A stretch of DNA of 21,348 bases from a virus. A model generated the notes under the pieces. It made no database searches, had not been told where the DNA came from, and worked only from the letters and a program-made list of their open reading frames with translations. The stretch spans positions 1 to 21,348 of the IMG/VR virus record IMGVR_UViG_3300025132_000371, one strand, 5' to 3'. A program made the position numbers and the translations under genes. Within the stretch, counting starts at the first letter, position 1. Each line of letters starts with the position of its first letter. Below are positions 2,061 to 20,500 of the stretch, in pieces.

Positions 2061-2300
2061 TTACTCCTTATCTAAAGTTAATGTTCCCTCTAACATACCA
2101 TCAATAGAATTTAACACCCACTCAGGCATATCTTCTATTAATATATCCTCCTTCTCAGCTTTAACTAAATGTAAGCTGATTAAATCTTCATATAGACTTC
2201 TAAACTGTTCTCTAGTTACCCAAGGTTCATTAACTTTAGCTCTAGCTTTACAATCTAATCTATATGCCCTATCTAAATCTTTTTCTAAGTAGAGCAGCAT
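2061..2300 (-). CDS. 79-residue protein of unknown function in the lysis cassette
   Basis: The protein is short, soluble-looking and acidic towards its end. It has an N-terminal segment with LDRAYRLDCKARAK and then EPWVTREQFRSLYEDLI, and no signal peptide or membrane segment. The segment style is reminiscent of small conserved marine-phage proteins, but I cannot name the family. It overlaps the last 16 bases of the lysozyme gene and ends just before the holin-like start, so it is co-translated with lysis genes. No strong Shine-Dalgarno site precedes its ATG, which suggests coupling to lysozyme translation. A lysis-timing role would be a guess. Confidence 0.7.
   Translation of the reverse strand: MLLYLEKDLDRAYRLDCKARAKVNEPWVTREQFRSLYEDLISLHLVKAEKEDILIEDMPEWVLNSIDGMLEGTLTLDKE
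2064..2069 (-). promoter_or_regulatory. Ribosome binding site of the holin-like gene
   Basis: Minus-strand AAGGAG lies four bases before the ATG at 2059 and directly upstream of the TAA stop (2061-2063) of the preceding gene. It is among the best Shine-Dalgarno matches in the lysis cassette, and it suggests that the holin-like gene is translated efficiently and fixes its start. Confidence 0.7.
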
Positions 2301-2743
2301 TCTAATACCATCTTTTGTAATTCAATACTTCTTCTACCAACTTGTCCAAACCAACGACTATCTTCCATTTGTCTAGCCATCTCACTCCAGTTATGTTCTT
2401 TACAAGCCTTTAACATATTTTTAAATTTAGATAATCTTGTACCACCTAAATTAAAACACATATTAACTAATACTCTTTGAATAGGTTCTGGTAAGTTTTC
2501 AAAGTCTTCTTCGCTACCAAAGACATGTATTGTTTCTTTGTAATGTTTTTGAAAGTCTTGCTCATAATACATATCAACAACTTCTTGAGATACTTTAGTT
2601 CCTACTTCCCAAGAATATTCAGGGTCTTCAGGTTGACAAAGATGTCCAATACCTAAAGTTTTATAGCCTAAACTATCTTCGTATATTTTTAACACTTCAC
2701 CTTCGTGTCTTTTTATTTCAGCTTTACAAAGTTCTATATTCAT
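2285..2743 (-). CDS. Endolysin, T4-type lysozyme (glycoside hydrolase family 24)
   Basis: This 152-residue muramidase would cut the peptidoglycan glycan strand between N-acetylmuramic acid and N-acetylglucosamine. The catalytic triad of T4 lysozyme (Glu11, Asp20, Thr26) is present with identical spacing as Glu14 (IKRHEG), Asp23 (IYEDSLGY) and Thr29 (KTLGIGHL). The C-terminal half keeps the family pattern: QRVLVNMCFNLG near 89-100, a FKNML helix, and SRWFGQVGRR near 129-138, matching SRWYNQTPNR in T4. It is slightly shorter than T4 lysozyme (164 residues). There is no signal peptide or N-terminal anchor, so it should need a holin for export. It starts in an ATGA overlap with the 1351-residue virion gene, with GGAGG and AGGA sequences upstream. 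The assignment is firm. Confidence 0.93.
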   Translation of the reverse strand: MNIELCKAEIKRHEGEVLKIYEDSLGYKTLGIGHLCQPEDPEYSWEVGTKVSQEVVDMYYEQDFQKHYKETIHVFGSEEDFENLPEPIQRVLVNMCFNLGGTRLSKFKNMLKACKEHNWSEMARQMEDSRWFGQVGRRSIELQKMVLECCST

Positions 2744-5700
2744 AATCCTAATTCCTCCATTTGTGCTGAGTAAGGTTCTCCAGTAAAAGGGTCTACTCGG
2801 TCTGCTGGGTCTTCTTTGGTGTCGGGTACTTCTGGTCCTGTAATTAAACCACCTTCAACTTTTTGTTGTCTGATAAATCTTTTAGGTCTTTTTAAAATAC
2901 TTATAACTTCTTTTTCTGCTTCATTTAAATCATCTTCGTATTGTAATAAAGGTAAAATACTTAATTGATTGTATAATTTTTTATAGCTTCTTTTAAATTG
3001 TTGAAAACTCATACCAGTATAATCAGATGCATTGTATAAAGCTCTTATTTGTCCATCAGCTAAACGAATAGGTTGAAAAGTATTATCGTAAGATGCTAAT
3101 CCTCTTTTTTCTATAGAGCCTAAACCTGTACCTTGTATATTTTTAAGGGAGTTTTTAATATCTTTAGTGCTAACTCCTAAAGTTCTTGCTCCTTTTATAG
3201 CTCTATTTAAAGTTACATAGTCTCTATAATATGCTCTGTTAGCTCGTAAATAATTCTCTAATGCATCATCTATTGTTTCAACTTTTGATATATTTAATAA
3301 ATCTTGAGTGGCTTCGTAGCTTGTATTAAATTCTTTTATTTTGTAAAATAAACTTCTTTTTATATTATCAGTATTAACAGAAGTATAATTTAAGCCTGTT
3401 AATTTACCTATAAATTCTTCTGCTGCTTCTTCTCCAGATAATGTTCCCTCTTGTAACTCTCTAGTATACTTAGCCCCTTCTCTTAAAAATCTTGGTATTA
3501 AAACTTCTCCTACATATTTAGAACTTGCAAATGCATTATCTATAAAACTTTGATTTGGGTTAGTTCCGGGAATATCATTACCATTTTCATCTTGACCTAT
3601 AAATGCTCTTGCTAATCTGTCAGTAAATAAAGGCTGGTCAATAAAAGGTTGTACAAATGTTTTTAAAGATTCCATAGTTGCATTAGCTACTTTATCTGAA
3701 ACACTATCAAGTGATGATTCTGGGTCAAATATCTCATCCATAAAAGAATTATATACATTTAAAACCGGAGCATTTGGGTCAGAAAAACTTAAATCTACAA
3801 ATGAAATATTACCAAATTTATCTCTCTTATATCCTATAGTTCCATTTTTTGACCAATAAGGTAAGGCAACATCTTTTATAGCTTGTTCTTCTTCATCACT
3901 AACTCCAAAGGCATATTTAGTATATCTGTTTATACCTTCACTACCTAAATAACCAACAGCCATTTGACTAGCTAATCTTTGATAACCTCTTTCAATTAAT
4001 TCTGGATTACCTGACCTAATTTCTTCCATACCTCTAATTAAAGTATGATAATTATTTCTCCATCTTTCTGCAAAGAAAGAATAAAAATTACCAAATATAG
4101 GTATTTTTCTTAACTCTCTAGCACCTAAAGGAACTAAATTATAAGTAGGAAAAGTATTTCTAATAATAGTAGCTGCTTCTTTTTCTAATTCATCTATACT
4201 TCTATTAGGGAATGCTTTTTTAAGAACATTTAATTCTTTTTGAAAAGATGCTATTCTCCATATATCATCTTCTGCAACATAAGTTTTATTAAAAGTATCT
4301 GTTACTTTATTAAATAATTTTTTACTTTTATCTCCAAAAATTTCAACAAATCCTCTATCTAATCTTTTTGCCCAGTTAGCATCTGTTAAGTTTTCATTTA
4401 TTAATTTTTTAAATTCACCTACTCTAACATTTTGATTTACAATACCTAAATTTTGATATTTAACATATAAATCTTCTAAAGCTTTATCTTTATTAGGGGT
4501 TCTAGCATACAGTTCATTTGTTAAAGTTTTAAAAGAATCTCTAGTTTCTTTACTAAAAGGATTTAATCCATTTTGTGCCATAATAATACCACCACCAATA
4601 GTATTACGAGCATGAGTTGTAATACTATATACAGTTGCTACAGCTTGTCCTACTCCTTTAAAAGCTAAAAGAGGAGATAATAATCGTTCAAAAGTTCCTG
4701 TAGAAGTTTGCTCAAAAAATTTAGCTATTTCTTTTGTAGTTCTCATACCATCCAAAGAACCAAATTGTTGTCCATTTATAGTAGCAGCAACTCTTGTTCT
4801 TGTAGTTGGACTTGCTCCTTCTTTAAAAAACCATTTACCTTCACCCTTAGTAGCTAAATCATCATACATTTTTAAATCAGATAAATACTTACCAAGGGTT
4901 TCTATAGTAGTAAAAACAGTCTTACCTATATCTTGAGTTTTTCTTTCGCCAAAAAACTTTCTTAAAGGTTCATCTATTTCTTTTCTAGTTTGAAATAAAA
5001 TGTCTGCTTTTTTAAATCCATAAACTTTATCTAAATAAAAGTCTATATTTTTTGAATCACCTAATAACCCATCTACAATTTCTCTAGCTTCTATACGAGC
5101 ATTATCTAAAGTTAATTTTGCAGTATCATCAAATAAAGAAGCTTGAACAGATTTACTAGCTAACTTTTCAGCTATACTTTCTACAGCTCCCTCTATAACA
5201 TCTTGACTAGGTTTGTAACTAGGGTTTTCAAAATACTCATAACTTTTTCTTAAATATTTACCTATGTTACTTCTTATAACAAATTTTAAATCTTCAGGTA
5301 TATTTTTTTGTTCTAATAATAATCTACTTAAATCATCAATAGTATCTCTAGTTCTTACAGCTACATCTTGTAAACCTTTAGGTAACTCATTTAAAGGTAT
5401 TTCTTTAGATAAATAATCTTCTAACATTTTAGTAACTTGAGGAGCATTAAATTCACCTTCTTTAACAAGTTGTTTAGATTGATAGGTTAAATCATCTAAC
5501 AAATTTTTTGCTTGTTTTTCAAATCCAGCTTTAGCTAACTCACCATCTAAAATAATATTGTGCATTTCTGAACTATAATATCCTCTAGTAGTAAAGTATC
5601 TTCTTCTTAGATTTCTAATTCCATTTAAAATATTTGTAGTAGTTTGTTTAATTCTACCCCCTTCACTTGGGATAGGAACAAAAACATCATCATCTAATCT

Positions 5701-6795
5701 ATCTTCAATTTTACTAGGAGTAAAAGGTTTTAACTTTTCTTTTAATGGAGCTAACATTTTTTTAAAAGTTTCTTTTACTTCAGGATTACTTTTTATTCTT
5801 TTTAATACACTACCTAGTGCATCTTTAGTAAGTGATGCAGTTTTAAAAGCTCCTCCTATTATTCCAGTAAAAACTCCACCATCTAATAATAAAGTTAATC
5901 TTCTTTGAGCAGCACTACTATCTTCATCAGCATCTAAATACTCAAAAAAATCTCCAATAAAGTTATCATCAAGTTCATTAGTTTCTAATTTTTCATTTAT
6001 ATAATTAGCTACAATAAACATTTCAGGGTCATCTGCAAAAACAAGTTGTGATGATGCTTCAGCAGCAACTAAATCTTTACCTAGTTTAATTTTTTTACTT
6101 CGTAAAACTTTTTTCTTATCTATTTTTTTACCAGTTTGTTTTACTACATCATCAACATTAGAACCCATTAGTTTTCTAAACTTACTCAGACCCACAACAA
6201 AAGGCACAACACTAGTTGCACCTTTACCTATGATTCCTTCAGGTTCTTGAATAGTATTATTATCATAAATATCAGCACCTACTATTGGTCTTAATACAGT
6301 AGACACACCTTTATCTATACTATCATTTCTATTTTTATTAATTTGCTTAACTAATTCATCATAGGACATATTTTTATCTTGAGCCATTTTTTCTAAAACT
6401 TCTCTTTGTCCAAATGTATTTAAAACAGAACTTGTATCTCCTAGTAACTTAGCACTACCTGTAACTAACTCATCAATAATACCACCCATAGTTCTTCTAT
6501 AATTTTTAAAGGGTAAATTATCACCTACCCAATCTTTATAAGTTGGTTCAAATTTTTTTCTATAAAAGTCAGGGTCTGATTTTAATGGGTCAGGTGGTAA
6601 TTCAGGAGATGTAATCTTTTGTATATCACCACTTAAAGGTTTTACAGAATCTTTTGTAGCTATATCTACAAACTCTGCAAATCCAAATTCTTTTTGATAA
6701 GAAGGTGTAGTATTGTAAAGTCTTCTAAGTTCCTCTAAATCATTTACATTACCTATATTATTCTCATACTTATATTGTTCGTATAGTGAAGGCAT
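2740..6795 (-). CDS. Very large internal virion / DNA-ejection-type protein (1351 residues)
   Basis: This is the largest protein of the window and is not assignable to an enzyme family by eye. The first ~130 residues are polar. Long charged helical regions follow, then a hydrophobic Gly-rich segment at about 702-742 (LLSPLLAFKGVGQAVATVYS, then GGGIIMAQNG) and an aromatic segment near 895-925 (RKIPIFGNFYSFFAERW). The C-terminal tail, including GGLITGPEVPDTKEDPADR and PFTGEPYSAQ, resembles tails I recall from large structural proteins of marine podoviruses. Its place at the end of a run of putative internal proteins, just before lysis genes, fits a gp16-like ejection protein that crosses the host envelope. 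I see no lytic transglycosylase motif. No clear Shine-Dalgarno site precedes the ATG; the preceding gene stops 11 bases upstream. The virion role is inferred. Confidence 0.72.
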   Translation of the reverse strand: MPSLYEQYKYENNIGNVNDLEELRRLYNTTPSYQKEFGFAEFVDIATKDSVKPLSGDIQKITSPELPPDPLKSDPDFYRKKFEPTYKDWVGDNLPFKNYRRTMGGIIDELVTGSAKLLGDTSSVLNTFGQREVLEKMAQDKNMSYDELVKQINKNRNDSIDKGVSTVLRPIVGADIYDNNTIQEPEGIIGKGATSVVPFVVGLSKFRKLMGSNVDDVVKQTGKKIDKKKVLRSKKIKLGKDLVAAEASSQLVFADDPEMFIVANYINEKLETNELDDNFIGDFFEYLDADEDSSAAQRRLTLLLDGGVFTGIIGGAFKTASLTKDALGSVLKRIKSNPEVKETFKKMLAPLKEKLKPFTPSKIEDRLDDDVFVPIPSEGGRIKQTTTNILNGIRNLRRRYFTTRGYYSSEMHNIILDGELAKAGFEKQAKNLLDDLTYQSKQLVKEGEFNAPQVTKMLEDYLSKEIPLNELPKGLQDVAVRTRDTIDDLSRLLLEQKNIPEDLKFVIRSNIGKYLRKSYEYFENPSYKPSQDVIEGAVESIAEKLASKSVQASLFDDTAKLTLDNARIEAREIVDGLLGDSKNIDFYLDKVYGFKKADILFQTRKEIDEPLRKFFGERKTQDIGKTVFTTIETLGKYLSDLKMYDDLATKGEGKWFFKEGASPTTRTRVAATINGQQFGSLDGMRTTKEIAKFFEQTSTGTFERLLSPLLAFKGVGQAVATVYSITTHARNTIGGGIIMAQNGLNPFSKETRDSFKTLTNELYARTPNKDKALEDLYVKYQNLGIVNQNVRVGEFKKLINENLTDANWAKRLDRGFVEIFGDKSKKLFNKVTDTFNKTYVAEDDIWRIASFQKELNVLKKAFPNRSIDELEKEAATIIRNTFPTYNLVPLGARELRKIPIFGNFYSFFAERWRNNYHTLIRGMEEIRSGNPELIERGYQRLASQMAVGYLGSEGINRYTKYAFGVSDEEEQAIKDVALPYWSKNGTIGYKRDKFGNISFVDLSFSDPNAPVLNVYNSFMDEIFDPESSLDSVSDKVANATMESLKTFVQPFIDQPLFTDRLARAFIGQDENGNDIPGTNPNQSFIDNAFASSKYVGEVLIPRFLREGAKYTRELQEGTLSGEEAAEEFIGKLTGLNYTSVNTDNIKRSLFYKIKEFNTSYEATQDLLNISKVETIDDALENYLRANRAYYRDYVTLNRAIKGARTLGVSTKDIKNSLKNIQGTGLGSIEKRGLASYDNTFQPIRLADGQIRALYNASDYTGMSFQQFKRSYKKLYNQLSILPLLQYEDDLNEAEKEVISILKRPKRFIRQQKVEGGLITGPEVPDTKEDPADRVDPFTGEPYSAQMEELGL

Positions 6796-6806
6796 TTTAA
6801 TTTATT

Positions 6807-8327
6807 TTATGGTCTTAAATTTAACGGGTCAGGATTCTCAATAGATTCTTTAGAAAATATTCTAGCTAAGTTATATTGTTGCCTAATAAATTCTTCTGTT
6901 TGTAATTCTCTAAATAAAGATAATGAATCTCCTAAAATTTCTTGATTAGAATTTATATCTTCTAAACTCATTCCTCTAATTCTTTCTTGTACATCAGCAG
7001 GTAATTTATCCATATCTAACACATTAAGCATAGTGTCATTTGGAGTTAAATCACCAGTATCTAATTTTTCATATACTCTTGCCATTCTACCTTTCATAAT
7101 TTCAGCTTCAACTGCTGCTATATTAATACCACCAACAGCTTTTCTTTGTATTTCTGCGATATAATCTTTTACAAATTCTTGTCTTTGCTCTTCTAATTCT
7201 TTAACATCTAGACCTTTATCTTTTCCATTGCTAATTGCAACAGTTAAATCAAATATTTCATTAGCTTTATCTATAGTATCTTGAGTTAAATCTTCAATAC
7301 CTAATACTTTTCTTTTAGCTGATTGTAATCCTCTATTCCAAGTATTCCATTCTAATGATGTGTTATCTTCAGGTTCTGGTTTTAATTCTTTATAAGTGTC
7401 TTCAGCATCTTCAAGTTTTAATAAATTAAGTTTAGCATTAAATCCTTCTTGATATGAAGCTATTGCATCTACAGCAGCGTTGTATGTCATACCACCAGCC
7501 GTCCATTCTTCTCTGATTCCTCTTCTTAATCTTAAACTATCTTCTCCAGCTTCAGCTAAACCACTTTGAGTTAATAATGTGGTTAAATCTGCATTACTAA
7601 TTTTTAAACCACTTATTTCACCTTTTTCTTTTTTAATACGAGCTATATCATCTTGAGTAAATCCTTTTATTCTAGTTTGATTTGCTTCTCTTTGTAATTT
7701 TAATTTTTCAACTTTATCAGCATATTCTTCTTTATCTTTACCTATTCCTATTTTACTAAATGCTTTATGAACTAAACTTACATTAGCAGGAGAAGCTATT
7801 TTATCTCTTTGTGCTAGATAGTAATCCATGTATGGTTTAGTAAACTCTTCTTTAGTAGTAATAGATTTATCTAATTTATTATATGTGTCCATAAATTCTT
7901 TTTCTTGTTTGTCAGAATAATCTGTCATCCAATCGAGTTTGTATTTTGCAATATCTCCACCTTGTAAACTCATTAATTCTTTTTCTTGAGTATGTGCATC
8001 ATTAAAAGCTTTTTCAGCATCAGCTCTATAATAATTTAAAGCTCCATTTTTTTGAATATTTTCGTATTGATTAGACAGTTCAACTCTTTTAGTCCATTGA
8101 TTATTTAGTTTTGCAACCTCTAAAGTTTTTTGTCTTTCAAGCTCTTCTAAATTTTTTCTTACTTTACTTTGCATACTAGCTTCTCTAGCATTAAAAAATA
8201 AAGATGCTAATAAAACATTTCTAGCTCTATTATCTTTTTTATCTCTATTAGATAAGAAAGCTCCTATAAGGTCTCCTGTTTGTGAACCGGGGTTTTTATC
8301 TAATAAACTTTTTAAAAAATCTGACAT
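6807..8327 (-). CDS. Helical, coiled-coil-rich putative internal virion protein (506 residues)
   Basis: The protein is mostly charged and helical, with heptad-like stretches (NLEELERQKTLEVAKLNNQW near 60-80, KEEYADKVEKLKLQREANQ near 200-220) and no signal peptide, membrane segment or recognised catalytic motif. It sits between two other putative internal virion proteins, and its start follows a good ribosome site (GAGGAA, about five bases before the ATG at 8327). The preceding stop is one base upstream. The context and helical composition fit an internal or ejection protein comparable in role, not in sequence, to T7 gp14-gp16. A tail-length (tape measure) role is less likely because the neighbouring genes look podoviral. 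Confidence 0.65.
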   Translation of the reverse strand: MSDFLKSLLDKNPGSQTGDLIGAFLSNRDKKDNRARNVLLASLFFNAREASMQSKVRKNLEELERQKTLEVAKLNNQWTKRVELSNQYENIQKNGALNYYRADAEKAFNDAHTQEKELMSLQGGDIAKYKLDWMTDYSDKQEKEFMDTYNKLDKSITTKEEFTKPYMDYYLAQRDKIASPANVSLVHKAFSKIGIGKDKEEYADKVEKLKLQREANQTRIKGFTQDDIARIKKEKGEISGLKISNADLTTLLTQSGLAEAGEDSLRLRRGIREEWTAGGMTYNAAVDAIASYQEGFNAKLNLLKLEDAEDTYKELKPEPEDNTSLEWNTWNRGLQSAKRKVLGIEDLTQDTIDKANEIFDLTVAISNGKDKGLDVKELEEQRQEFVKDYIAEIQRKAVGGINIAAVEAEIMKGRMARVYEKLDTGDLTPNDTMLNVLDMDKLPADVQERIRGMSLEDINSNQEILGDSLSLFRELQTEEFIRQQYNLARIFSKESIENPDPLNLRP

Positions 8328-8328
8328 A

Positions 8329-8925
8329 TTATTCCTCTTTTGCTAATAAGCTATTGCTTTTTTGTTTTTCTACTTTATCTAATAAACTTTGTGGTATTTC
8401 AGTTTCCTCAATAACTTCTCTAACTTCTGTAGGTACGGACTGTGGATTTACTCTACTTACAGCTTGTTTCCTTATATTATCTAATTCGTTTATGCCACCT
8501 TGTAAAGTTTCTATTTGTTTATCTGCAGACATTTCTATGGGCTCTTTATCATCTCCTGAATCTAACACATAATCTATTTCTGCTTTTTCAGCTAAAGCTA
8601 TAAGCATATACATAGTTGGTTCAACCATAAGTGTCATTAAGTCTGGATTCCATTTACCTTCTAAAAATCCTGTATAAAGAATACTAGAAGCAATATCAAT
8701 AACTCCTACACCATTACTTAATGATAATAAAATATTTGTAGTTGTTTCTGGAACTGTAAGAGTTTCAAAAATATAAAACATAGTTTCTTTTGGGTTAGTA
8801 AACTCTGAAGGTTTTTCCCAGTTATATGCATCTTCTGGGGAGTTAGTTAAACTTTGTCCGGGAACAGCTTTACCTGTTTCAAAACTATCTGATATAAATT
8901 TTATTGCTTTTTCTGAAATTGCCAT
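8329..8925 (-). CDS. Conserved-looking phage structural-region protein, function unknown (198 residues)
   Basis: Near the N-terminus is a PGQSLTNSPEDAYNWEKPSE segment, and then a helical part with GFLEGKWNPDLMTLMVEPTM followed by a MLIALAEKA helix at about 88-115. I recall this arrangement (PGQSLT..., WE.P, GKW.PD) from small structural-region proteins of marine phages, but no function is known to me. The C-terminal 80 residues are charged and probably helical. The moderately hydrophobic middle (TNILLSLSNGVGVIDIAS) could pack against a membrane or partner. A good ribosome site (AGGAT) precedes the ATG. The gene sits inside the putative ejection-protein block and may be a virion component or an assembly chaperone for one. 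Confidence 0.65.
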   Translation of the reverse strand: MAISEKAIKFISDSFETGKAVPGQSLTNSPEDAYNWEKPSEFTNPKETMFYIFETLTVPETTTNILLSLSNGVGVIDIASSILYTGFLEGKWNPDLMTLMVEPTMYMLIALAEKAEIDYVLDSGDDKEPIEMSADKQIETLQGGINELDNIRKQAVSRVNPQSVPTEVREVIEETEIPQSLLDKVEKQKSNSLLAKEE

Positions 8926-8934
8926 AATTTTATC

Positions 8935-9849
8935 CTATGAATATACTTGTGCTTGTCCTAATAAATACTGTGGAGAAAGAGTACCAAACAATAAACTTTG
9001 ATTTAGTTGTTGAAAGTTTGTAGCTGGTAAATTAGGTATTTGATTTTGTACCTCTCTCACATAAGCTCCTTGAGCACTCTCTTGCATTGGTTGAGAAGCT
9101 ACACCAGCACTTTGAAACTGTTCTTCTGGCTCTCCCATAATTGTATTTATAGCTAAACTACCAACTACACTTCTTGCAGTATCGGGAATAAAATCTGGTC
9201 CTACAAGTTCTTTAGTTTTACCTATTGGGTCTTGACCAAACTCTTTTATACCCTTTCCTAAATCTGTAAAATTTTGTTTTATTTCTTGTCCTAAAGTAGG
9301 AGTTTTACTTTGTGATACAAAATCAGTAGGTGTCATTAATCTATCTGAAATATTACCTGTTTCAAAATTTGGTAAACTACCTTCAAATCCGGGTATATTT
9401 AAATTATTGGCTAGTTTGTTAAGAGAACCAGTAACAGTATCACTAATAATTGGAGGACTATTAACAATACTTTTTTCTATTGCTGCCATATTTAATTGAC
9501 CTGAAGGCAATGCTGTTCCTGTAGCAGAACTTAAAGCTGAACCCTCTGTAAGACCTGTTACAGTTTTTGATAAAGCATCTGTTCCTGCAGCAATACTTTC
9601 TACTGTTCCAGCCCCAGCAGTTGCAGTAGTAGTTGCACCAGCACTTGAAGCAGGAAGAGTTGTAGGTATATTTACTGTAGGAGGAGGCGTTATTCCTAAA
9701 GCACCTTTTATACCATTAAAGGCTCTACCTATTAATGGTCCTAACATCATACCAATAGCTATACTTCCTATAAAAGCACCTATCTTACTACTAAAAAGTT
9801 TTTTAACTCCTTTCTTTATTTTTCTACCTACTTTTCTTAAAAATCCCAT
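8935..9849 (-). CDS. Putative membrane-active internal virion protein (304 residues)
   Basis: The first 22 residues are a strongly basic amphipathic helix (nine Lys/Arg; GRKIKKGVKKLF). A hydrophobic Gly-rich segment at about 23-45 follows, with glycines at 24, 28, 33, 37 and 41, a GxxxG-type packing pattern. The rest is low-complexity Thr/Ala/Gly/Pro-rich (about 53-115) and then polar, ending FGTLSPQYLLGQAQVYS. No enzyme motif is seen. The head of the protein resembles membrane-permeabilising peptides, which would suit a protein ejected with the DNA and inserted in the host envelope. The ribosome site AGGAT is well placed before the ATG at 9849. The gene lies four bases downstream of the 11-residue-repeat protein gene. 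The function is inferred from composition and position. Confidence 0.65.
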   Translation of the reverse strand: MGFLRKVGRKIKKGVKKLFSSKIGAFIGSIAIGMMLGPLIGRAFNGIKGALGITPPPTVNIPTTLPASSAGATTTATAGAGTVESIAAGTDALSKTVTGLTEGSALSSATGTALPSGQLNMAAIEKSIVNSPPIISDTVTGSLNKLANNLNIPGFEGSLPNFETGNISDRLMTPTDFVSQSKTPTLGQEIKQNFTDLGKGIKEFGQDPIGKTKELVGPDFIPDTARSVVGSLAINTIMGEPEEQFQSAGVASQPMQESAQGAYVREVQNQIPNLPATNFQQLNQSLLFGTLSPQYLLGQAQVYS

Positions 9850-9853
9850 AATA

Positions 9854-12013
9854 TTATCCTAGTCCTGATTGATACGAATTTCTTAATGAACTTATTAAAC
9901 TTGTTAAATAGTCATCATAAACTTGTCCTGATTTACCTTCATTAGCAATAGCTGTTGCAAGTATTTGAGCATTTCTATTTTCTTGATTTTCAAAAGCTCT
10001 AAAATCAAAATCTGCTTGGTCTCTTAACTCTTGCCATAAAAATGACATAGACTGAGAACTTAAATTAAATGCGTTCATAGCATTTTGCATATTAATTTGA
10101 TTTTGTGCAGCAGTATTAATTGTATTTGCTTGTCTTCTCCATTGCACATTAGAAGCTTCAACAGCAGCAGCATTTTGTGCATTCCATTGATTTCTTGCAA
10201 AGTCTTGTTGAGAATTAAACTGGTCTACTTGAGTTATAAGTTGTGCATTAAATTTATTTATATCAGCTTCTCTTCCAGCTCTTCTAGCTTCTGCAGCATT
10301 TGATTGAGTTGCATTAAATTGACTCATCGCATTTGCTTGAGAAGAATTATATTGATTTATTTGTGCATTTAAATTTGCCATAAATTGATTTGTTTGATTT
10401 TCACTTGTAGCATTAAATTGATTAGATGCATTTTGAGCTGCTTGATTACTTAAAATTCTTTGTTGTGTTTGTTGAGCTTTTAACATATTGGCTTGTTGTT
10501 CACTACTAAGATTAGCCATATCCATTTGTAAAAAGTTTTTAGCATTTTGTATTTGTGCTTGTTGATTTAAATTAGCTTCAGCTAAATTAGCTTGAGACAT
10601 TAATACAGCATTTTGTATAGTGCTTTGTTGGTCAGCACTAGCCTCTGTTAAACTAATAGTTTGAAAAAATTTACTATTAGCTAAAGATGTTTGTTGTTCA
10701 GCACTAAATTCTGCTACATCTAATTGAAATACATTTTTAGCATTATTTAAAACAGCTTGTTGTTCTCTTTGTGCATTAGATTCAGCAACTTGTGCTTCAA
10801 TACTTCTTTGTTGACTTACACTTTGTTGTATAGCTTGAGCATTACTTTGAGCTAAAGGTATAGCACTTTGTATAATAGCATTAAATAAATTATCTCTACC
10901 GACACTAGATGCACTTAAACCTCTTCTTGCTAACATAGCTTCTACACTAGCAACAGCAGGTTGAGCCCATGCAGGTATTTCACCTTCTTCCATACCACTT
11001 AACAAACTATCTAATTGATTAGATACTAAAGCTTCTTCTGGTAATCCAGCTATTACTCCCCTTTCTTGTTCTGTAAAATCAGTTAATTTATCTTCTAAAG
11101 CTTCAGGGTTATTACCTAACTGAGTAATAGCATCTTCTTGTAATCCTGCATTTCTTAATTGTTTTTTAGCTCTAGTAACTCTGGCTAAATTAGTACCTGC
11201 ATTATTTGCTGCAATAGCTTTTGCTTCTGGACTTAATGTACCTTTAATTGTTTCTGCTACAGCTCCTTCTTGAACAGTAACAGTAGCACCCTCAATAGTA
11301 GCAACTTTATCTACTCCTGCAGCTTCAGCGATAGCACCATCTGATAATGTTCCTTGTGCAGCTTCAACTTGAGCTTTAGTATCGACAGTAGCTGCTCCCA
11401 TTTTTGAAGCAGTCATTCTTCCCATAATAGGTTGCCCTTCTGCATCAACTCCTATTTGTGTTAAAGGTACTTCTGCTTGAGCTACTTTATCTGATTCTAT
11501 AGTTGTAACTTTTTCTGGAGTAGTTTGTTTTGCAGTAGTTTTTGTAACTGAAGTTGGTTGTGCCATAGTTGTTTGTTCTTGGTCTTTTACATCTCCTACT
11601 TTTCTTGCTGTAGGTATTACTGCTGTTTCTGGTAGCATACCTTGAGCAGCACCTTCTACTAAATTTGCAGACCTTTCAATTCTTTCTCTTCTTTCGTTAG
11701 ATGCAGTAGTGCTTCCACCACCTACGTTACTTCCTCCACCACCAATACCGGGAATATCAATAATATTGTCATCACCACTATTTCTATCAATAAGTGGAGG
11801 TACACTCCCCGGTTGTATTTGATTTTGTCTATCAACAGAAAATCTATTTCTTAATTCTTCTTGTCGTCTTTCAAATCTTTCTTTGTCTTCATCTTCATTG
11901 TGAGGACCACCATGAAATTTAGACACTCTTCCACCAGTACGCATATCTACTCTATCACCTGTAGTATATCTATTTCTTTTACTTCTTCTTTTTTTCTTTT
12001 CTTTTTTTGCCAT
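9854..12013 (-). CDS. Putative internal virion protein with long 11-residue repeat helix
   Basis: I start this gene at the ATG at 12013, because CAGGAAAAG lies just upstream; a GTG at 12028 would put that site inside the coding region. The 719-residue protein begins with a very basic segment (AKKEKKKRRSKRNR), then a Gly-rich linker (about 85-105), an Ala/Thr-rich region, and a conserved-looking motif GEIPAWAQPAVASVEAMLAR (near 344-363) followed by RRGLSASS. I recall PAWA...RGL.SSS segments from internal virion proteins of marine podoviruses and myoviruses. From about residue 391 to 665 it is an unbroken run of 11-residue units rich in Gln, Asn and Ala. It lacks membrane segments. The basic N-terminus could touch DNA. 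A structural or ejection role is likely; the exact one is unknown. Confidence 0.75.
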   Translation of the reverse strand: MAKKEKKKRRSKRNRYTTGDRVDMRTGGRVSKFHGGPHNEDEDKERFERRQEELRNRFSVDRQNQIQPGSVPPLIDRNSGDDNIIDIPGIGGGGSNVGGGSTTASNERRERIERSANLVEGAAQGMLPETAVIPTARKVGDVKDQEQTTMAQPTSVTKTTAKQTTPEKVTTIESDKVAQAEVPLTQIGVDAEGQPIMGRMTASKMGAATVDTKAQVEAAQGTLSDGAIAEAAGVDKVATIEGATVTVQEGAVAETIKGTLSPEAKAIAANNAGTNLARVTRAKKQLRNAGLQEDAITQLGNNPEALEDKLTDFTEQERGVIAGLPEEALVSNQLDSLLSGMEEGEIPAWAQPAVASVEAMLARRGLSASSVGRDNLFNAIIQSAIPLAQSNAQAIQQSVSQQRSIEAQVAESNAQREQQAVLNNAKNVFQLDVAEFSAEQQTSLANSKFFQTISLTEASADQQSTIQNAVLMSQANLAEANLNQQAQIQNAKNFLQMDMANLSSEQQANMLKAQQTQQRILSNQAAQNASNQFNATSENQTNQFMANLNAQINQYNSSQANAMSQFNATQSNAAEARRAGREADINKFNAQLITQVDQFNSQQDFARNQWNAQNAAAVEASNVQWRRQANTINTAAQNQINMQNAMNAFNLSSQSMSFLWQELRDQADFDFRAFENQENRNAQILATAIANEGKSGQVYDDYLTSLISSLRNSYQSGLG
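10019..10843 (-). repeat. About 25 tandem 11-residue (33-base) protein repeats
   Basis: In the encoded protein every eleventh residue is usually Asn: 17 of 25 units begin with N by my count. The first part shows a 22-residue super-period ending in EQQ/DQQ/NQQ units (NAKNVFQLDVA, then EFSAEQQTSLA). The second part has aromatic residues just before the Asn (QF-N, QY-N, QW-N). The register never slips over about 275 residues. An 11-residue period predicts three turns of a straight or right-handed helical assembly. Confidence 0.8.
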
Positions 12014-12020
12014 TATCTTT

Positions 12021-12024
12021 TCCT
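12021..12024 (-). promoter_or_regulatory. Ribosome binding site that decides the start of the 11-residue-repeat protein
   Basis: Minus-strand AGGA (context CAGGAAAAG) is seven bases before the ATG at 12013. It would be inside the reading frame if the in-frame GTG at 12028 were used, so the ATG is the better start. Confidence 0.65.
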
Positions 12025-12088
12025 GCACGATGTAGCAGCTTCATAAGAAGTTTAGGTTTATCTGTCATCATTATGATTACTGCTCGTT

Positions 12089-12680: not shown

Positions 12681-15600
12681 TTATTCTCCTTTTAAGTTAT
12701 TAATTTCAGATTGTAAGGCATCAACCTGTTCGTGTAATTCTTGTAATGCTTTAGTAAGTACAGCTATGTAAGGACTTGTTAATCCTTCACTAATTTGTTT
12801 GTAACCATTTTCATCATTTGAAACAAATTCAGGTAAAACTGTTTCAACATTTTGTGCAATAAATCCATAAGGCACATCTAAATTACTTTCTGTAAATGTA
12901 AAAGAAGATGGTTTTAGAGCCATAACTTTATCTAAACAACCAGTCACATCTTTTATATTTTCTTTTAATCTTTCATCAGAAGTAGCTGTAAATTGTGGTG
13001 AACCACCTGAACCAAATGTAATTTTACCACCAGCAGTACCACCTCCACTTATGTCAAAGTGTATGTATGTATTTGTAGAACTTGCTGTTCCATCTGATTT
13101 TCTTATAAACAATGCTGCATCAGTTGATGCTTCTACTATTGATACTTTTGCATTAGAAATTTGTGATGTTGTTCCTATTTGAACATCACCAGAAGAATCA
13201 ATACGCATTCTTTCTGTATTATTAGTACCGAATACAAAATCATTATTGGCTCTATTGTATAAAAATCCTACATCATCTGTTCCACTAGCAAAACCTTGTC
13301 CTAAAATTATTTCTTGTGCTTCAGCGTTACCATCAGCTCTTAAAGATAATGCAGCAGCACCAGAGGATTCACCAACTAACATAATTCTATCGCCTACTAC
13401 ATGCAGTGGTTCACTAGGACTGCTGGTGTTAATTCCAACATTACCAGTACTATCAATACGCATCTTTTCAGATAATGTAACTGCTGCTCCTGCACTACCA
13501 CTAGCTTGTGTAAAAAATTGGTGAATACCAGCTTCTTGTCTGTAAGCTGATGATTCATTAGCTTCAATGTACGCAAAAGCACCTGTATCAGAATCAACAT
13601 ACATATTATCTGTAACAAAAGTACCATCAAGACCATGAACTCCTGTAGCATTTTCACTTATTACTGAACCTTTTTGACCTATAAAAACTTGTGTCCAACC
13701 AGTATGTGTATCAGAAGGTGGAGTAGTTCCCATACCTATTGCACCAGTACTTGTCATTCTCATTCTTTCTGTATTATTTGTAGAAAGTGCTAATGTATTA
13801 CTAGCAGGTGCATGAATAAATACTTGGTCAGAAGTATTTGTAAAATGCAATTTATTAGTGCTTTTAATTTTTGCATCGCCATCAATAACTAATTTTTCAT
13901 CTGGACTACTTGTACCAATACCAACACCAGTAGAATCTATAATAACTCTTTCAGTACCACCAGTATCAAATCTTATTTTATCTTCATCACTTGATTCTTC
14001 TACTTGAACCATGGTATCACCATCGGCATCACTTAGTTGTGTAGCTGTTGTAATACTTGTATTAGTTGCAGTTATAGCTTCTACTGCTACACCTGAAGGT
14101 GGGGCTACTCCAAATGTTAAAGTAGTACCACTTACTGAAAAACTATCTTTGTTTTGATAAACACCATCAAAGTAAACTGATACATTGTTTTCATGTACTG
14201 GAGCAACTGATAATGTTAATGTAGTATCAGAACCATCTCCAGTCATTGTAGCTATTGAGTTATTAGAACCACCTACAGTTGTTGTACTATGATAGACTGT
14301 AATAACTCTACCATTAGCAGGAGCTGTAGCAAATGTTAATGTAGTTCCTGAAACAGAGTAAACATTCTGTGCTTGGAAAACACCATCAACAAATACCATT
14401 AAATTGTTTTCGCTGTCTGGAGCTGTACTTAATGTAAAAGTTGTATCACTTCCATCACCTGTAAAGATATTGGTGTCCATGTTTGTACCTGAACCACCAC
14501 CGGCTATTGCACCCCATTCAGTTGTATAACCTTCAAACTTACCTGTTTCTGAATTATATCTAAAATAACCTGCTGCTGGTGAAGAAGGTCTTTGTGCTGT
14601 TGTACCTACTGGTACATGTATTGAGTCTGTATTAGAACCTAAGTCAAGTGAAACATCTGGTGAAGTTTGATTGACACCTATTTTATTTTCACTTACATCA
14701 ACAAATAATACACCACTATCTACATTAACATCTCCAGAGAATGTAGCTGCATTAAATGTTGTAGGCACTATATTAGCACTACCATCAAAGCTTACACCAC
14801 CAATAGTTCTTGCAGTTGTTAAAGTAGCTGCTGAACCTGTAGTGTTTTGATTAAGAGTTCCTACTGTTAAATCTATCGTACCATCGGAGTCTTGATAATC
14901 AACTGTAATACCTGATTCAGTATTAGAGCTAAACATAGCACCAACTGTATCTTGTACAACCTCTGTTAGGTCTATATTAGCTGTACCATCAAAACTTACT
15001 CCGTGTATTGTTCTAGCTGTTTCAAGTGCTGTAGCTGTAGCTGCATTACCTGTTGTGCTTTGATTTAATGTACCAACTGTAAAGTCTAATGTACCATCAC
15101 TATCTTCGTAAGTTACAGTAATACCACTTTCAGTATTACTAGATACCATAGCTCCTACAGTATCTTGAATAACCTCTGATAAATCAATGTTAGCTGTACC
15201 ATCAAAAGATACACCATGTATTGTTCTTGCTGTCGCTAACGCTGTAGCTGTATCTGCCAAGGCTACAGAAATATTAGCTGTACCATCAAAGCTTGTACCA
15301 CCGATAGTTCTAGCAGTTTCTAAAGCTGTAGCAGTTGCAGCATTACCTGTAGTATCTTGGTTAAGTGTTCCAATAACAAAGTCTAAAGTATTATCACTAT
15401 CATCATAAGTTACTGTAACTCCTGTTTCTGTATTAGAAGTTACCATAGCTCCTACAGTATCACTAATTGTTTCTGCTAGTGTTGTACCATTTATTGTAAT
15501 AGCATCAGCTTCTAATGTACCATCAATGTCTACATCTCCTGATACATCTAATGTAGCTGCATCAAGTTCACCTGTTATAGTTATGTTTCTTGCACCTGTA

Positions 15601-16724
15601 AAGTCTTTGTTACCATCTACAATAATAGCTTTAGAAGCTTCTACAGTTCCTACTGTTGAAACATCTACATAATTAAGTTCTGTTGTAGTTGCTGTAACAC
15701 CATCAAGTAAGTTTAATTCTGTAGCTGTTGATGTAACTCCATCAAGTATGTTTAACTCTGATGCAGTACTGGTAACTCCATCAAGTATGTTTAGCTCTGC
15801 TGTTGTAGATGTTACACCATCCATTATATTTAATTCAGCAGTAGTTGCAGTTACACCATCCATAATGTTTAGTTCTGCTGTTGTTGCAGTAACTCCATCC
15901 ATTATATTTAGTTCTGCAGTTGTAGCAGTTACTCCGTCAAGAATATTAAGTTCGGCTGCTGTGGATGTCACTCCATCTAATATGTTTAGTTCAGCAGCAG
16001 TTGATGTGATTGCTGTGCCATTAAAGTTTATAGCATCTAAATATGCAACACCATCAATATATAAATCTTTCCATTCTTTTGAAGAACTACCTAAGTCATA
16101 TGTGTTATCATCATCTGGAACAATATTAGAATCTACTTCACCACCAAAAACAATATTGTCTGTATCAGCATCACCTAAAGTTAGTGTGCCACCATTAAAT
16201 GTTGTTGTACCTGTTACTGTAAGATTACCACCTACATCTACATTACCTGTAGTGGTAACAGTAGTAAATGCACCACTAGAAGCTGAGTTAGCTCCTATAG
16301 TAGCACCATCAACAGTACCACCATTAATATCAGCAGTATCAGCAACTAAAGCATCTGTAGTAACTGTACCATCAAAAAATGCATCTTTAAATTCAAGAGA
16401 GCTAGTACCTAAGTCAATATCATTATCTGTTACAGGAACTATAGCACCATCTGCTATATATAATTGTTGTACTGAACTACTAGATACTTCTACATAAAAC
16501 TCAATAAAATTATTTGTAGTGTCTATTAAGACTTTGTTGTTTGGAGAAGTTTCTCCTGCATCACCAATTAATCCTATAACTGGTCCAGAAGCTGTTGTTC
16601 CATCATGTGAGTGTCCTGTTGAGTTGTTAAATGCATTTACTAACTGGTTATATTCATTATTAAATAACGCAGCAGTAATTGTATCTCCATCTGCAAAAGA
16701 ACTTTGTCTTGTATATCCTGCCAT
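12681..16724 (-). CDS. Long tail fibre with C-terminal S74 intramolecular chaperone (1347 residues)
   Basis: This receptor-binding-type fibre has an N-terminal virion-attachment-like part (FNNEYNQLVNAFNN, GHSHDGT near 21-42). Then come nine 13-residue TAELNILDGVT-type units (about 238-356), three longer modules (about 421-655), two ~55-residue beta modules with FTGDGSDTTFTL and VFVDGVFQ (about 753-884), and beta repeats with NTERMR motifs. The last 99 residues are an S74 (endosialidase-type) chaperone: TSDERLKENIKDV near 1248, PYGFIAQNVETVLPE, and a terminal coiled coil (ELHEQVDALQSEINNL). In the known family this domain trimerises the fibre and cleaves itself off at a conserved Ser, here Ser1249. 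The gene begins in a TAATG overlap with the previous fibre gene, with GGAGAG upstream. The receptor is unknown. Confidence 0.88.
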   Translation of the reverse strand: MAGYTRQSSFADGDTITAALFNNEYNQLVNAFNNSTGHSHDGTTASGPVIGLIGDAGETSPNNKVLIDTTNNFIEFYVEVSSSSVQQLYIADGAIVPVTDNDIDLGTSSLEFKDAFFDGTVTTDALVADTADINGGTVDGATIGANSASSGAFTTVTTTGNVDVGGNLTVTGTTTFNGGTLTLGDADTDNIVFGGEVDSNIVPDDDNTYDLGSSSKEWKDLYIDGVAYLDAINFNGTAITSTAAELNILDGVTSTAAELNILDGVTATTAELNIMDGVTATTAELNIMDGVTATTAELNIMDGVTSTTAELNILDGVTSTASELNILDGVTSTATELNLLDGVTATTTELNYVDVSTVGTVEASKAIIVDGNKDFTGARNITITGELDAATLDVSGDVDIDGTLEADAITINGTTLAETISDTVGAMVTSNTETGVTVTYDDSDNTLDFVIGTLNQDTTGNAATATALETARTIGGTSFDGTANISVALADTATALATARTIHGVSFDGTANIDLSEVIQDTVGAMVSSNTESGITVTYEDSDGTLDFTVGTLNQSTTGNAATATALETARTIHGVSFDGTANIDLTEVVQDTVGAMFSSNTESGITVDYQDSDGTIDLTVGTLNQNTTGSAATLTTARTIGGVSFDGSANIVPTTFNAATFSGDVNVDSGVLFVDVSENKIGVNQTSPDVSLDLGSNTDSIHVPVGTTAQRPSSPAAGYFRYNSETGKFEGYTTEWGAIAGGGSGTNMDTNIFTGDGSDTTFTLSTAPDSENNLMVFVDGVFQAQNVYSVSGTTLTFATAPANGRVITVYHSTTTVGGSNNSIATMTGDGSDTTLTLSVAPVHENNVSVYFDGVYQNKDSFSVSGTTLTFGVAPPSGVAVEAITATNTSITTATQLSDADGDTMVQVEESSDEDKIRFDTGGTERVIIDSTGVGIGTSSPDEKLVIDGDAKIKSTNKLHFTNTSDQVFIHAPASNTLALSTNNTERMRMTSTGAIGMGTTPPSDTHTGWTQVFIGQKGSVISENATGVHGLDGTFVTDNMYVDSDTGAFAYIEANESSAYRQEAGIHQFFTQASGSAGAAVTLSEKMRIDSTGNVGINTSSPSEPLHVVGDRIMLVGESSGAAALSLRADGNAEAQEIILGQGFASGTDDVGFLYNRANNDFVFGTNNTERMRIDSSGDVQIGTTSQISNAKVSIVEASTDAALFIRKSDGTASSTNTYIHFDISGGGTAGGKITFGSGGSPQFTATSDERLKENIKDVTGCLDKVMALKPSSFTFTESNLDVPYGFIAQNVETVLPEFVSNDENGYKQISEGLTSPYIAVLTKALQELHEQVDALQSEINNLKGE
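14073..14468 (-). repeat. Two diverged copies of a ~55-residue beta module in the long fibre
   Basis: Residues about 753-811 and 824-884 of the fibre share FTGDGSDTT / MTGDGSDTT, a P-x-x-ENN turn, VFVDGVFQ / VYFDGVYQ, and VSGTTLTF followed by APP-like turns. The copies are clearly homologous at the protein level and diverged at the DNA level. Confidence 0.75.
14760..15464 (-). repeat. Three copies of a 70-75-residue module in the long fibre
   Basis: Residues about 421-655 repeat the order DTVGAM(V/F), SSNTE(S/T)G(I/V)TV, DSDGTLDFTVGTLNQ, TTGNAATATALETARTI, then GVSFDGTANI, three times, with an extra partial ARTIHGVSFDGTANID copy between the first two. The copies differ mainly by conservative changes, which suggests internal duplication. 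Confidence 0.8.
15657..16013 (-). repeat. Nine tandem 13-residue (39-base) repeats in the long fibre
   Basis: Residues about 238-356 are units of the form T(S/A)T(A/T)AELNI(L/M)DGV. The amino acids hardly vary, while the codons do (for example tta/ctt/ttg-type choices and aca/act for Thr), so the DNA copies are far less alike than the protein copies. The last unit is degenerate (TATTTELNYVDV). Confidence 0.85.
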
Positions 16725-18049
16725 TATTTACTCTCCAATTTTGTTTTTAATTCTTCTACTTCTGCTGTTAGTTCTTGTACAGCTTTTACTAACAATGGTG
16801 TTATTCTTCCATAATCTACACCTTGCATTTCATCACCATCTTTTTCACCATAAACACAGTCACTAAATATTTCATCAACCTCATGTGCTATAAATCCTTC
16901 AGCTTCTTCACCTGTTTCTTTCCAAGTAAATTTTACTGGATTTAATTTATTTAATCTTTCTAAACCATTTTGCATGGTTTCTATATTTTCTTTTAATCTA
17001 TAATCAGATGATGTGTTATAAACTGTTGAAGAACCACCTGATGTAATTGAGCCTACTGCTGTTGCACTGTCATTTTCAAACAAACATAAAAATCCATTAC
17101 CAAAAGATGATTTTCTTACTATTAGTCCAGCACCTGCAGTTCTTGTTACAATAGCATCTGATGACGCTTGTATTGATAAATCCTCTGAGCCTCTTACGCC
17201 ACTTGTCGTGCCAATAAGAACTTTACCACTAGCATTAATTCTCATTCTCTCGGTATCAGTGTTTGTATTAAAAACTATAGTATCTTCACCTTGTAGTTGT
17301 AATGCACCTGAACCAGTTGCACTAGTTAAACCTACTGAACCATACTCAACATTATTATCACCTCTAAGCATAAAATGTTTTTTACCATCACCATTTCTAG
17401 TTTGAATGATTGCACCAGTACCAACATTACTTACGCCATTAAATAAACCTGCGTATGTGCTGTTTCCTATAGATGTGCCTAGTTGTAACAGACCAGCACT
17501 TGTTAGTCTTGCATTTTCTGAAGTATTAGTTTGAAAATACAAGTAATTACCATTGTTATTGTATAAAACAGCACCTATATCATCATCATCCGTATCGCCC
17601 ATAACCATACCAGCAAGACTAGATGTGCCTGAAACTGCTGCTATTATTGAATGGTCGCTAGATTTTTGAACTTTTAATTCTCTGTCAGTAGTTGTAGTAC
17701 CTATAGAAACAAGACCTGAACTATTAATACGCATCCTTTCTGTATCACTTGTTCCAAAAGCTAAAGTGCCTGTACTTGGTGTAAGTAATGCTACTGCAGA
17801 AGCAGTTTTAAATTGAAAATCTGCATCTGATGCATTTGTAAAGTTAGCAAGAGTTCCATCTGCTGCTGAAACACTAAAAGGTGAGCTGGGTGCAGCACCT
17901 ACTCCTACTCGGTCATTACCACCATCAACAAATAACATGTGTGTTTTACCATTAGACTCAACTCTAAAATCAGCATCTGCTGAACTTTCATTAATTACTA
18001 CGCCACCATCTAAATCTACTAAAGATGCTGAAACTTTTGTTATCGCCAT
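16724..18049 (-). CDS. Second tail fibre with S74 intramolecular chaperone (441 residues)
   Basis: The N-terminus (MAITKVSASLVDLDGGVVIN) is short and unlike that of the long fibre. The shaft carries beta-helix-like units with repeated ERMRIN(S/A)SG..(S/L)IGT motifs near 104-117 and 268-281. The S74 chaperone covers about the last 95 residues: YNTSSDYRLKENIE near 344-357, the KFTWKETGEEAEGFIAHEVD segment, and a terminal coiled coil (LTAEVEELKTKLESK). Autocleavage would be expected at the Ser before Asp-Tyr-Arg (Ser348). A strong AGGAGA ribosome site precedes the ATG at 18049. The gene ends in a TAATG overlap with the long fibre gene. It is probably a second adhesin or a part of a branched fibre; which of these is not decidable here. 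Confidence 0.85.
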   Translation of the reverse strand: MAITKVSASLVDLDGGVVINESSADADFRVESNGKTHMLFVDGGNDRVGVGAAPSSPFSVSAADGTLANFTNASDADFQFKTASAVALLTPSTGTLAFGTSDTERMRINSSGLVSIGTTTTDRELKVQKSSDHSIIAAVSGTSSLAGMVMGDTDDDDIGAVLYNNNGNYLYFQTNTSENARLTSAGLLQLGTSIGNSTYAGLFNGVSNVGTGAIIQTRNGDGKKHFMLRGDNNVEYGSVGLTSATGSGALQLQGEDTIVFNTNTDTERMRINASGKVLIGTTSGVRGSEDLSIQASSDAIVTRTAGAGLIVRKSSFGNGFLCLFENDSATAVGSITSGGSSTVYNTSSDYRLKENIETMQNGLERLNKLNPVKFTWKETGEEAEGFIAHEVDEIFSDCVYGEKDGDEMQGVDYGRITPLLVKAVQELTAEVEELKTKLESK

Positions 18050-19672: not shown

Positions 19673-20500
19673 TTAGCCTTCTAGTGTTGTTATTCTTGCT
19701 TCTAGTTCTTGTATTGTTTTTACCAGTAATGGTACAAGTTTGCTTTGGTCTATACCTTGATATTCTGGATTTCCTTCACTATCAACTGCATCTTTTTCAC
19801 CTGTAATAGCTTCAGGCACTATACTTGAAACTTCGTGAGCCAAAAACCCATCAACTAATGTATTTGTTTCATCAGATTTAAAATTAAATCTAGCAGGTTT
19901 TAATTGTTTTAATCTTGTGGTTGCATCCCAAGTGTAGTCTACATTTTCTTTTAATCTGTAATCTGAAGATGTGTTAAATGCTGTTGCAGTTGTTGTTACA
20001 GTTATACTTCCCACATTTGAAGCATCTCTTAAAAATTCTAAAACACTTCCATTACTATTTTCTCTTTTAAAATAACCTGATGCACCATTGAATCTTGATG
20101 AAACTATATAATCATCAGCACCACTGACTCCAAAACCTGAATGTCCATCACTTAATAGTGTAAGAGGAGTTTGAGTAGTTCCCACCAATAAATTGCCCGA
20201 ACTATCAATACGCATTCTTTCTGAATTTGCAGTATGAAATGTCATTATATCTGAACCGGGTAAAACAATACCAGAATCTGTATCTGCATCACCTAAATAT
20301 TGGTCAGCATAAATTGTTCCAACATTTGTTAAATCAGCTTCACTAAAACTTGTAGCACCTAAAGTATTAGCTGCTGCTGTGGAAGTTATGCCTGTTGAAA
20401 ATGTCACAAGCTCATCACTACCAATAGTTATAGCTGTTGCATTACTTCCGTCTACTATTCCGGGGGTACTTGATAGTTCTACTGGTACTTTTGTTGTCAT
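19673..20500 (-). CDS. Short tail fibre with S74 intramolecular chaperone (275 residues)
   Basis: A short N-terminal part (VPVELSSTPGIVDGSNATAI) is followed by a single SERMRIDSSGNLLVGTT unit near 93-109 and then by the S74 chaperone from about 175: FNTSSDYRLKENV, VDGFLAHEVSSIVPEAITGE, QGIDQSKLVPLLVKTIQELE. The C-terminal domain is clearly closer to that of the 441-residue fibre (same NTSSDYRLKEN, same LLVK-x-(V/I)QEL end) than to that of the long fibre. The small shaft suggests a stub fibre, a fibre connector, or a decayed copy, although the frame is intact. A strong TAGGAGA ribosome site precedes the ATG. The gene sits between the two tail-tube-like genes. Confidence 0.83.
   Translation of the reverse strand: MTTKVPVELSSTPGIVDGSNATAITIGSDELVTFSTGITSTAAANTLGATSFSEADLTNVGTIYADQYLGDADTDSGIVLPGSDIMTFHTANSERMRIDSSGNLLVGTTQTPLTLLSDGHSGFGVSGADDYIVSSRFNGASGYFKRENSNGSVLEFLRDASNVGSITVTTTATAFNTSSDYRLKENVDYTWDATTRLKQLKPARFNFKSDETNTLVDGFLAHEVSSIVPEAITGEKDAVDSEGNPEYQGIDQSKLVPLLVKTIQELEARITTLEG

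Follow-up and report, generated by a model that had tools for sequence, protein, structure and literature searches.

A strictly registered 11-residue helical repeat in a virion-module protein of HMO-2011-type marine podoviruses: a candidate DNA conduit

INTRODUCTION

What does a short-tailed phage do with a protein built largely from one uninterrupted series of 11-residue units? The question is raised by a gene on the minus strand of the window (the whole stretch of viral DNA analysed here, 21,348 nucleotides, positions 1 to 21,348 of IMG/VR virus record IMGVR_UViG_3300025132_000371), which encodes a large, Gln/Asn-rich protein of a marine short-tailed phage that consists mostly of 11-residue helical repeats. 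HMO-2011-type phages are considered to be among the most abundant in the ocean (PMC9038755). Within the literature covered, an open-literature search found no description of the 11-residue repeat and no report on how short-tailed phages of the HMO-2011 type carry their DNA across the envelope.

RESULTS

Layout of the repeat protein

The GTG start listed for the repeat gene (12013–12028) is probably wrong; the ATG five codons on, opening MAKKEKKK, is the likelier start because relatives and the family consensus begin MAKK (Table 1). The N-terminal region varies freely in length among relatives, and the conserved helical domain that follows it terminates in a P-I/L-A-Q anchor, the proline of which is the final one ahead of the repeat in 64/64 proteins examined. 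The second part of the repeat ends beyond a further anchor, SNVQWRR. The composition of the repeat is 18% Ala, 18% Gln and ∼1% Gly, with no Pro and few Lys, and its net charge in the window is −7.

Table 1. Position of the repeat gene, of the parts of its protein and of neighbouring genes in the window
Feature	Position	Strand	Basis or remark
Repeat-protein gene	9854..12028	−	ORF; 724 aa from GTG, 719 aa from ATG at 12013
N-terminal region, low-complexity, mostly unstructured (predicted)	11252..12028	−	Residues 1–259; AF2 and family comparison
Conserved helical domain preceding the repeat (predicted)	10844..11251	−	Residues ∼260–395; AF2 pLDDT 75–90
25 units of 11 residues	10019..10843	−	Residues 396–670 exactly
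First repeat part, 22-residue super-period, E/D/N-Q-Q units	10460..10843	−	Residues ∼396–523
Second repeat part, 11-residue units, aromatic at 11 and Asn at 1	9960..10459	−	Residues ∼524–690
Next gene, 304 aa, Gly/Ala-rich hydrophobic segment KIGAFIGSIAIGMMLGPLIGRAF	8935..9849	−	Variable slot
198-aa partner protein	8329..8925	−	Downstream of the repeat gene in 80/81 loci with room
506-aa all-helical cassette protein (predicted)	6807..8327	−	Gene order, structure prediction
1351-aa cassette protein, 'virion structural protein'	2740..6795	−	PHROG phrog_22602
Endolysin/lysozyme adjoining the cassette	2285..2743	−	phrog_7, 3.5e-19
Three fibre-like proteins, each with a terminal Peptidase_S74 chaperone	12681–16724, 16724–18049, 19673–20500	−	
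172-aa protein matching CsgF of curli secretion	740–1258	−	PF10614, 1.3e-19

Periodicity of the repeat

Identity autocorrelation of residues 396–670, compared with shuffles, gave z = 5.6 at lag 11, 7.3 at lag 22, 8.25 at lag 33 and 6.4 at lag 44, and z below 0 at lags 7 and 18 in the same 275-residue stretch, so that both of the peaks expected by an earlier note on this DNA, at 11 and 22, are present. That note had counted about 25 units here with Asn at position 1 in 17 of 25; both figures were recovered, and the observation was, if anything, understated. Its 22-residue super-period is likewise found in the first half, where lag 22 dominates (z up to 8.0), and Phe, Tyr or Trp occupies position 11 in the second half, as described (units starting at 528, 539, 550, 561, 583, 594 and 605), where lags 11 and 33 dominate. 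The hydrophobic positions proposed, 4, 8 and 11, stood only in part: position 8 holds, 4/5 holds in the first half and 11 in the second, and in place of a single face there are two opposite seams. Across the family the hydrophobic positions are 10, 8, 2 and 4/5 in the first half and 11 and 8 in the second.

By the same autocorrelation, no lag-11 or lag-22 maximum was found in four neighbouring cassette proteins and no lag-11 maximum in six P22 and T7 ejection proteins; P22 gp16 gave a weak lag-22 peak (z 3.8), and phiX174 H a lag-11 z of 5.1. Recent tandem duplication of DNA was rejected as the origin of the units: there are no 33-bp arrays in the repeat gene, so that the register is maintained at the protein level.

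A family of relatives

A protein-level relative is present in 24 phage records, including HMO-2011, HTVC103P/104P/115P/033P, Roseobacter CRP phages, Vibrio CHOED, Aeromonas MQM1 and 1233, Pseudoalteromonas Slicky01 and Rhizobium/Sinorhizobium phages. In IMG/VR, 77 loci were recovered with the window protein as query, the best being 100% identical and probably the window's own contig, and a profile scan recovered at least 548. The 11/22-residue periodicity is kept in 11/11 isolate or assembled-phage homologs tested, even below 40% identity, in most cases with the 22-residue period preceding the 11-residue one.

Sequence searches of Pfam, PHROG and the PDB gave no match above cut-off for the window protein. 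The CRP-3 homolog matches phrog_6121, 'virion structural protein' (3.6e-13), a family without assigned function that matched neither the window protein nor the other five family members scanned. A C-terminal Peptidase_S74 domain is absent from the window protein and present in 1 of 22 members (CRP-3). In HMO-2011, CHOED, CRP-3 and phiM6 the repeat protein runs on into a Gly/Ala-rich hydrophobic C-terminal segment; in the window a comparable segment opens the next gene instead. The protein belongs to HMO-2011-type podoviruses that probably infect SAR11. Phage-borne curli genes have been reported in HTVC023P-type pelagiphages (PMC9599517), and together with these the CsgF match in the window fits a SAR11 host.

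Length changes in whole steps of 11

Length was measured from the PIAQSNA-like anchor (residue 391 on) to SNVQWRR (residue 626 on), a span of 235 residues in the window. With strict regular-expression anchors, the departure from 235 is an exact multiple of 11 in 64/64 proteins, and this holds for each of the two sub-spans; ungapped scoring against the anchor peptides, which agrees with the strict expression (64/64), gave exact multiples in all 72 distinct proteins of a first set. Among 79 loci of a second set, most of them on new contigs, 77/77 with clear anchors obey the same rule, with differences of up to +627 residues; the two others are without clear anchors, and one of them (L240) is cut at a contig edge. 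Since the anchors resemble repeat units, their placement can be off by one or more whole units, and they are weak in three members of the first set (phiM6, RHph_N3_19 and L080); an out-of-register insertion would still show. As a control, 60 proteins were examined outside the repeat: 8 of 55 distinct non-zero length differences in the N-terminal segment and 1 of 20 in the C-terminal segment are multiples of 11, against 9/9 in the repeat of the same proteins. The lengths of the flanking segments follow no 11-step rule and behave at random.

The steps are of 11, and not only of the 22 of the super-period. Most of the length variation falls in the part with the 22-residue period; the aromatic part is nearly constant in close relatives, and the number of uninterrupted hendecads between the anchors ranges from 13 to ∼78. 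Proline was found in none of the 21,354 (first set) and 27,676 (second set) repeat residues, ∼49,000 in total, and the longest proline-free run per protein is 246 to 938 residues (333 in the window). In a relative of ∼1755 aa, encoded at one locus (L224), the hendecads continue for 938 residues free of proline, ∼141 nm as one helix. That length shifts only in 11-residue steps, in some 150 relatives, suggests a modular rod or tube. At the level of sequence, the repeat and its strict register are established, and the feature is real, conserved and unusually strict.

Predicted helices with two opposite hydrophobic seams

AF2 with 44 homologs predicts helices at residues 378–436, 453–504, 509–538 and 543–698 and no sheet in the repeat. 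Together with the strict register across relatives, this agrees with the uninterrupted helical 11-residue register described earlier, and the predicted helix reaches ∼698, beyond the end previously given at 670; a globular fold, named in the earlier note as one outcome that would tell against the repeat, is not predicted. The pLDDT is ∼75–85 over most of the second part and 38–53 in residues 430–510 of the first. A Foldseek search of the repeat-protein model against the PDB returned nothing at E <= 0.001.

Because the single-harmonic hydrophobic moment gave no face, a two-face test was run. On an 11/3 wheel, two-face hydrophobic power exceeded 3 in 45/45 non-redundant proteins (4–13 in the named phages) and single-face power in 1/45; the two-face signal is strong per protein and not significant on the 11 family-averaged positions alone (p 0.07–0.18). 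The seams are separated by nearly 180 degrees, a value that does not fix the number of helices. Between them, Gln lies at ∼200 degrees and acidic residues at ∼30 degrees, the concentration of Gln on one face having p 0.007–0.014 in the window and the second part and 0.34 in the first part. The repeat thus has the character of a hendecad helix, in strict register, with amide side chains on one face and acid opposite Gln. The two-face alpha periodicity (196 degrees) aliases with the period of a beta-strand (164 degrees), and composition together with AF2 argues for helix rather than beta. Two opposite seams imply that each helix packs between two neighbours, as a barrel or a helix sheet needs, a pattern that appears unlike what a simple trimer or a helix lying on a membrane would show. 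Both the helicity and the pair of seams are in this sense predictions, drawn from modelling and sequence statistics.

Gene neighbourhood

On the minus strand of the window, genes for an SU10-type adaptor, a nozzle-like protein and S74 fibres precede the repeat gene, and 304-, 198-, 506- and 1351-aa proteins and a lysozyme follow it. The 1347-aa fibre-like protein contains a run of TAELNILDGVT-type short repeats. The 198-aa partner carries the motif PIPGxSLT..P.WE.PP, and PHROG, Pfam and the PDB gave no clear match for it; for the 506-aa protein, Foldseek against the PDB gave nothing at E <= 0.001; and residues ∼507–680 of the 1351-aa protein have a period-23 self-similarity (z about 5). In the isolates compared, the repeat gene comes after tail/fibre genes and is followed by ∼180-aa, ∼370–930-aa and ∼800–1700-aa proteins, often with one or more small or variable genes between it and the ∼180-aa gene. 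In Roseobacter phage CRP-603 (L094 4171–5112) the slot directly after the repeat gene encodes a cell wall hydrolase (PF07486), and in CRP-2 (L090 10208–11131) a protein with a weak tape-measure match. An odd neighbour occurs in HTVC115P, where the annotation of the gene that follows reads toxin-activating lysine acyltransferase (L091 10765–11214).

In HMO-2011-type marine podoviruses the repeat gene stands first in a conserved cassette. Judged from gene order, the layout is that of a putative ejection cassette, as in P22 and T7, and it supports a virion-module gene that is placed right for an ejection protein.

DISCUSSION

Our results suggest that the repeat protein is most likely a virion protein, as gene order indicates, that assembles into a DNA conduit or a rod. 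We give about an even chance to the conduit, that is, to a virion protein whose helices, packed via the two seams, form a barrel or bundle through which DNA crosses the envelope in an H-like manner. Long Gln/Asn/Ala-rich 11/3 helices would pack side by side through the two opposite hydrophobic seams into a barrel or straight bundle, in which the Gln side (positions 3, 7 and 11) would line the lumen and the charged side (5 and 9) would face outward. The protein would travel in the head, be set free early in infection and then extend, and the extended form may act as the DNA conduit across the cell envelope, in the manner of the phiX174 H tube. The rod or helical ejection tube suggested in the earlier note thus stays the best of the readings, with the likeness to the H tube in its favour. 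The barrel state, the face turned inward and ejection are proposed by analogy, and the function is thus one that we infer, with good motivation.

The dimensions of a relative bear on this proposal. Aeromonas phage MQM1 has a 9.2-nm tail and a 70.6-nm head (PMC10410586), and with so short a tail an ejected conduit would be needed to cross the envelope. The longest members, when straight, exceed the ∼70-nm head and must fold back there; the 938-residue run, at 141 nm, is longer than both this head and what the envelope needs, which argues against a single straight tube for all members unless it folds back. Points against a conduit are that there is no detectable homology to known ejection proteins, that AF2 confidence is low in the first part and that the CRP-3 homolog carries an S74 domain. 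No virion proteomics or structure was found for any family member.

A rod that is not a channel remains the main rival, unlikely as we judge it: a trimeric external fibre, needle shaft or tape-measure-like spacer whose length changes in 11-residue steps would suit the wide, modular length variation, the S74-bearing fibre genes just upstream and the S74 end of the CRP-3 homolog, a domain usual in trimeric fibres. However, a trimeric coiled coil should show one hydrophobic face where the repeat has two, S74 occurs in that single member of 22, and the gene heads a putative ejection cassette beside a slot able to hold a cell wall hydrolase. The two seams would equally suit an antiparallel sheet or bundle of helices, and since the longest members exceed the head diameter of MQM1, folding back in the virion is likely; both points favour an internal core or DNA-organising head protein without a channel, such as a hairpin bundle. 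This we consider improbable, because the net charge of the window repeat is unlike that of DNA-condensing proteins and a loose bundle offers no reason for a strict register over the full length.

Two further readings concern the fold itself. Local i,i+2 hydrophobic alternation (FLQMDM), with Asn and Phe at fixed positions, might point to a beta-solenoid with an Asn ladder and an aromatic stack, but the lack of proline, the scarcity of glycine, the abundance of Ala and Gln, the AF2 helix (pLDDT ∼75–85 over most of the second part) and steps of 11 rather than solely 22 make this very unlikely. Apolipoproteins have an 11-residue repeat with a 22-residue super-period, and the 11-mer helices of apolipoproteins, LEA proteins and synuclein have a single amphipathic face, the 22-mers of apolipoproteins being typically punctuated by Pro. 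The repeat protein shares the 11-residue repeat and the 22-residue pairs, which would suit an amphipathic helix of this type lying on and coating a host membrane; its two opposite hydrophobic faces (a single one in 1/45 proteins) argue against an apolipoprotein-like helix, as do the few Lys and the absence of Pro punctuation. The apolipoprotein-like comparison made in the earlier note is accordingly not upheld, and we regard the membrane-coating reading as extremely unlikely.

For the conduit, the strictly quantised helical repeat offers a clear, testable candidate for an envelope-crossing DNA machine. For protein design, the family adds a natural series of hendecad helices that differ in length, and the 11-step rule is a simple sequence rule by which further members may be found.

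In gene arrangement the nearest known systems are the ejection proteins P22 gp7, gp16 and gp20 and T7 gp14, gp15 and gp16, which occupy the same genome position after the tail genes in a multi-gene cassette; the window likewise has an ordered cassette, large partner proteins included, on the downstream side of its tail genes. P22 gp7 and gp20 are also Q/N-rich, like the repeat protein. A likeness seen by eye between ARRGLSASSVGRDNLFNAIIQSAIP and GGLGSTATSNQLSAIAP of gp7 had suggested homology to P22 gp7 or T7 gp14, which was rejected: hhalign probability was below 1% against P22 gp7, gp16 and gp20 and T7 gp14 and gp15 (T7 gp16 lay outside the profile comparison), compared with 99.7% for diverged members of the repeat family as positive control. 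The P22 and T7 alignments held close relatives only, so that very remote homology could escape hhalign. The C-terminal barrel of the P22 portal is a 12-helix alpha-helical barrel of 15 nm (PMC4992974), with Gln/Ala-rich helices around a passage for DNA in the virion, a likeness to the structure proposed here; as a relative it was rejected, having no homology and no 11 peak (z 0.6) and belonging to the portal.

In function the nearest parallel is the phiX174 DNA pilot protein H (residues 151–271), likewise a phage protein whose Gln/Asn-rich helix is built from 11-residue repeats (QKELTKMQLDN...). The H tube is a decamer that combines 11/3 and 7/2 helices, with hendecads of the form QKExxxxQ and a lumen in which 18/23 residues are N, Q or R (PMC7354561). 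It has three hendecads followed by heptads, over 17 nm, whereas the repeat family has 13 to ∼78 uninterrupted hendecads between the anchors, and phiX174 is an ssDNA microvirus whereas the phage of the repeat protein is a dsDNA podovirus. No homology to H was detected (hhalign probability 0.1% or less), and the likeness of the 11-mer profile to the H hendecads is weak, or at most suggestive (best rotation p = 0.07). Since both are phage proteins with hendecads and a face rich in amides, we propose that the repeat protein works like H, though not homologous to it. It is possible, at rather less than an even chance, that this widespread family of dsDNA podoviruses independently evolved an amide-lined hendecad tube like that of H, its length set in 11-residue quanta from ∼13 to ∼78 units.
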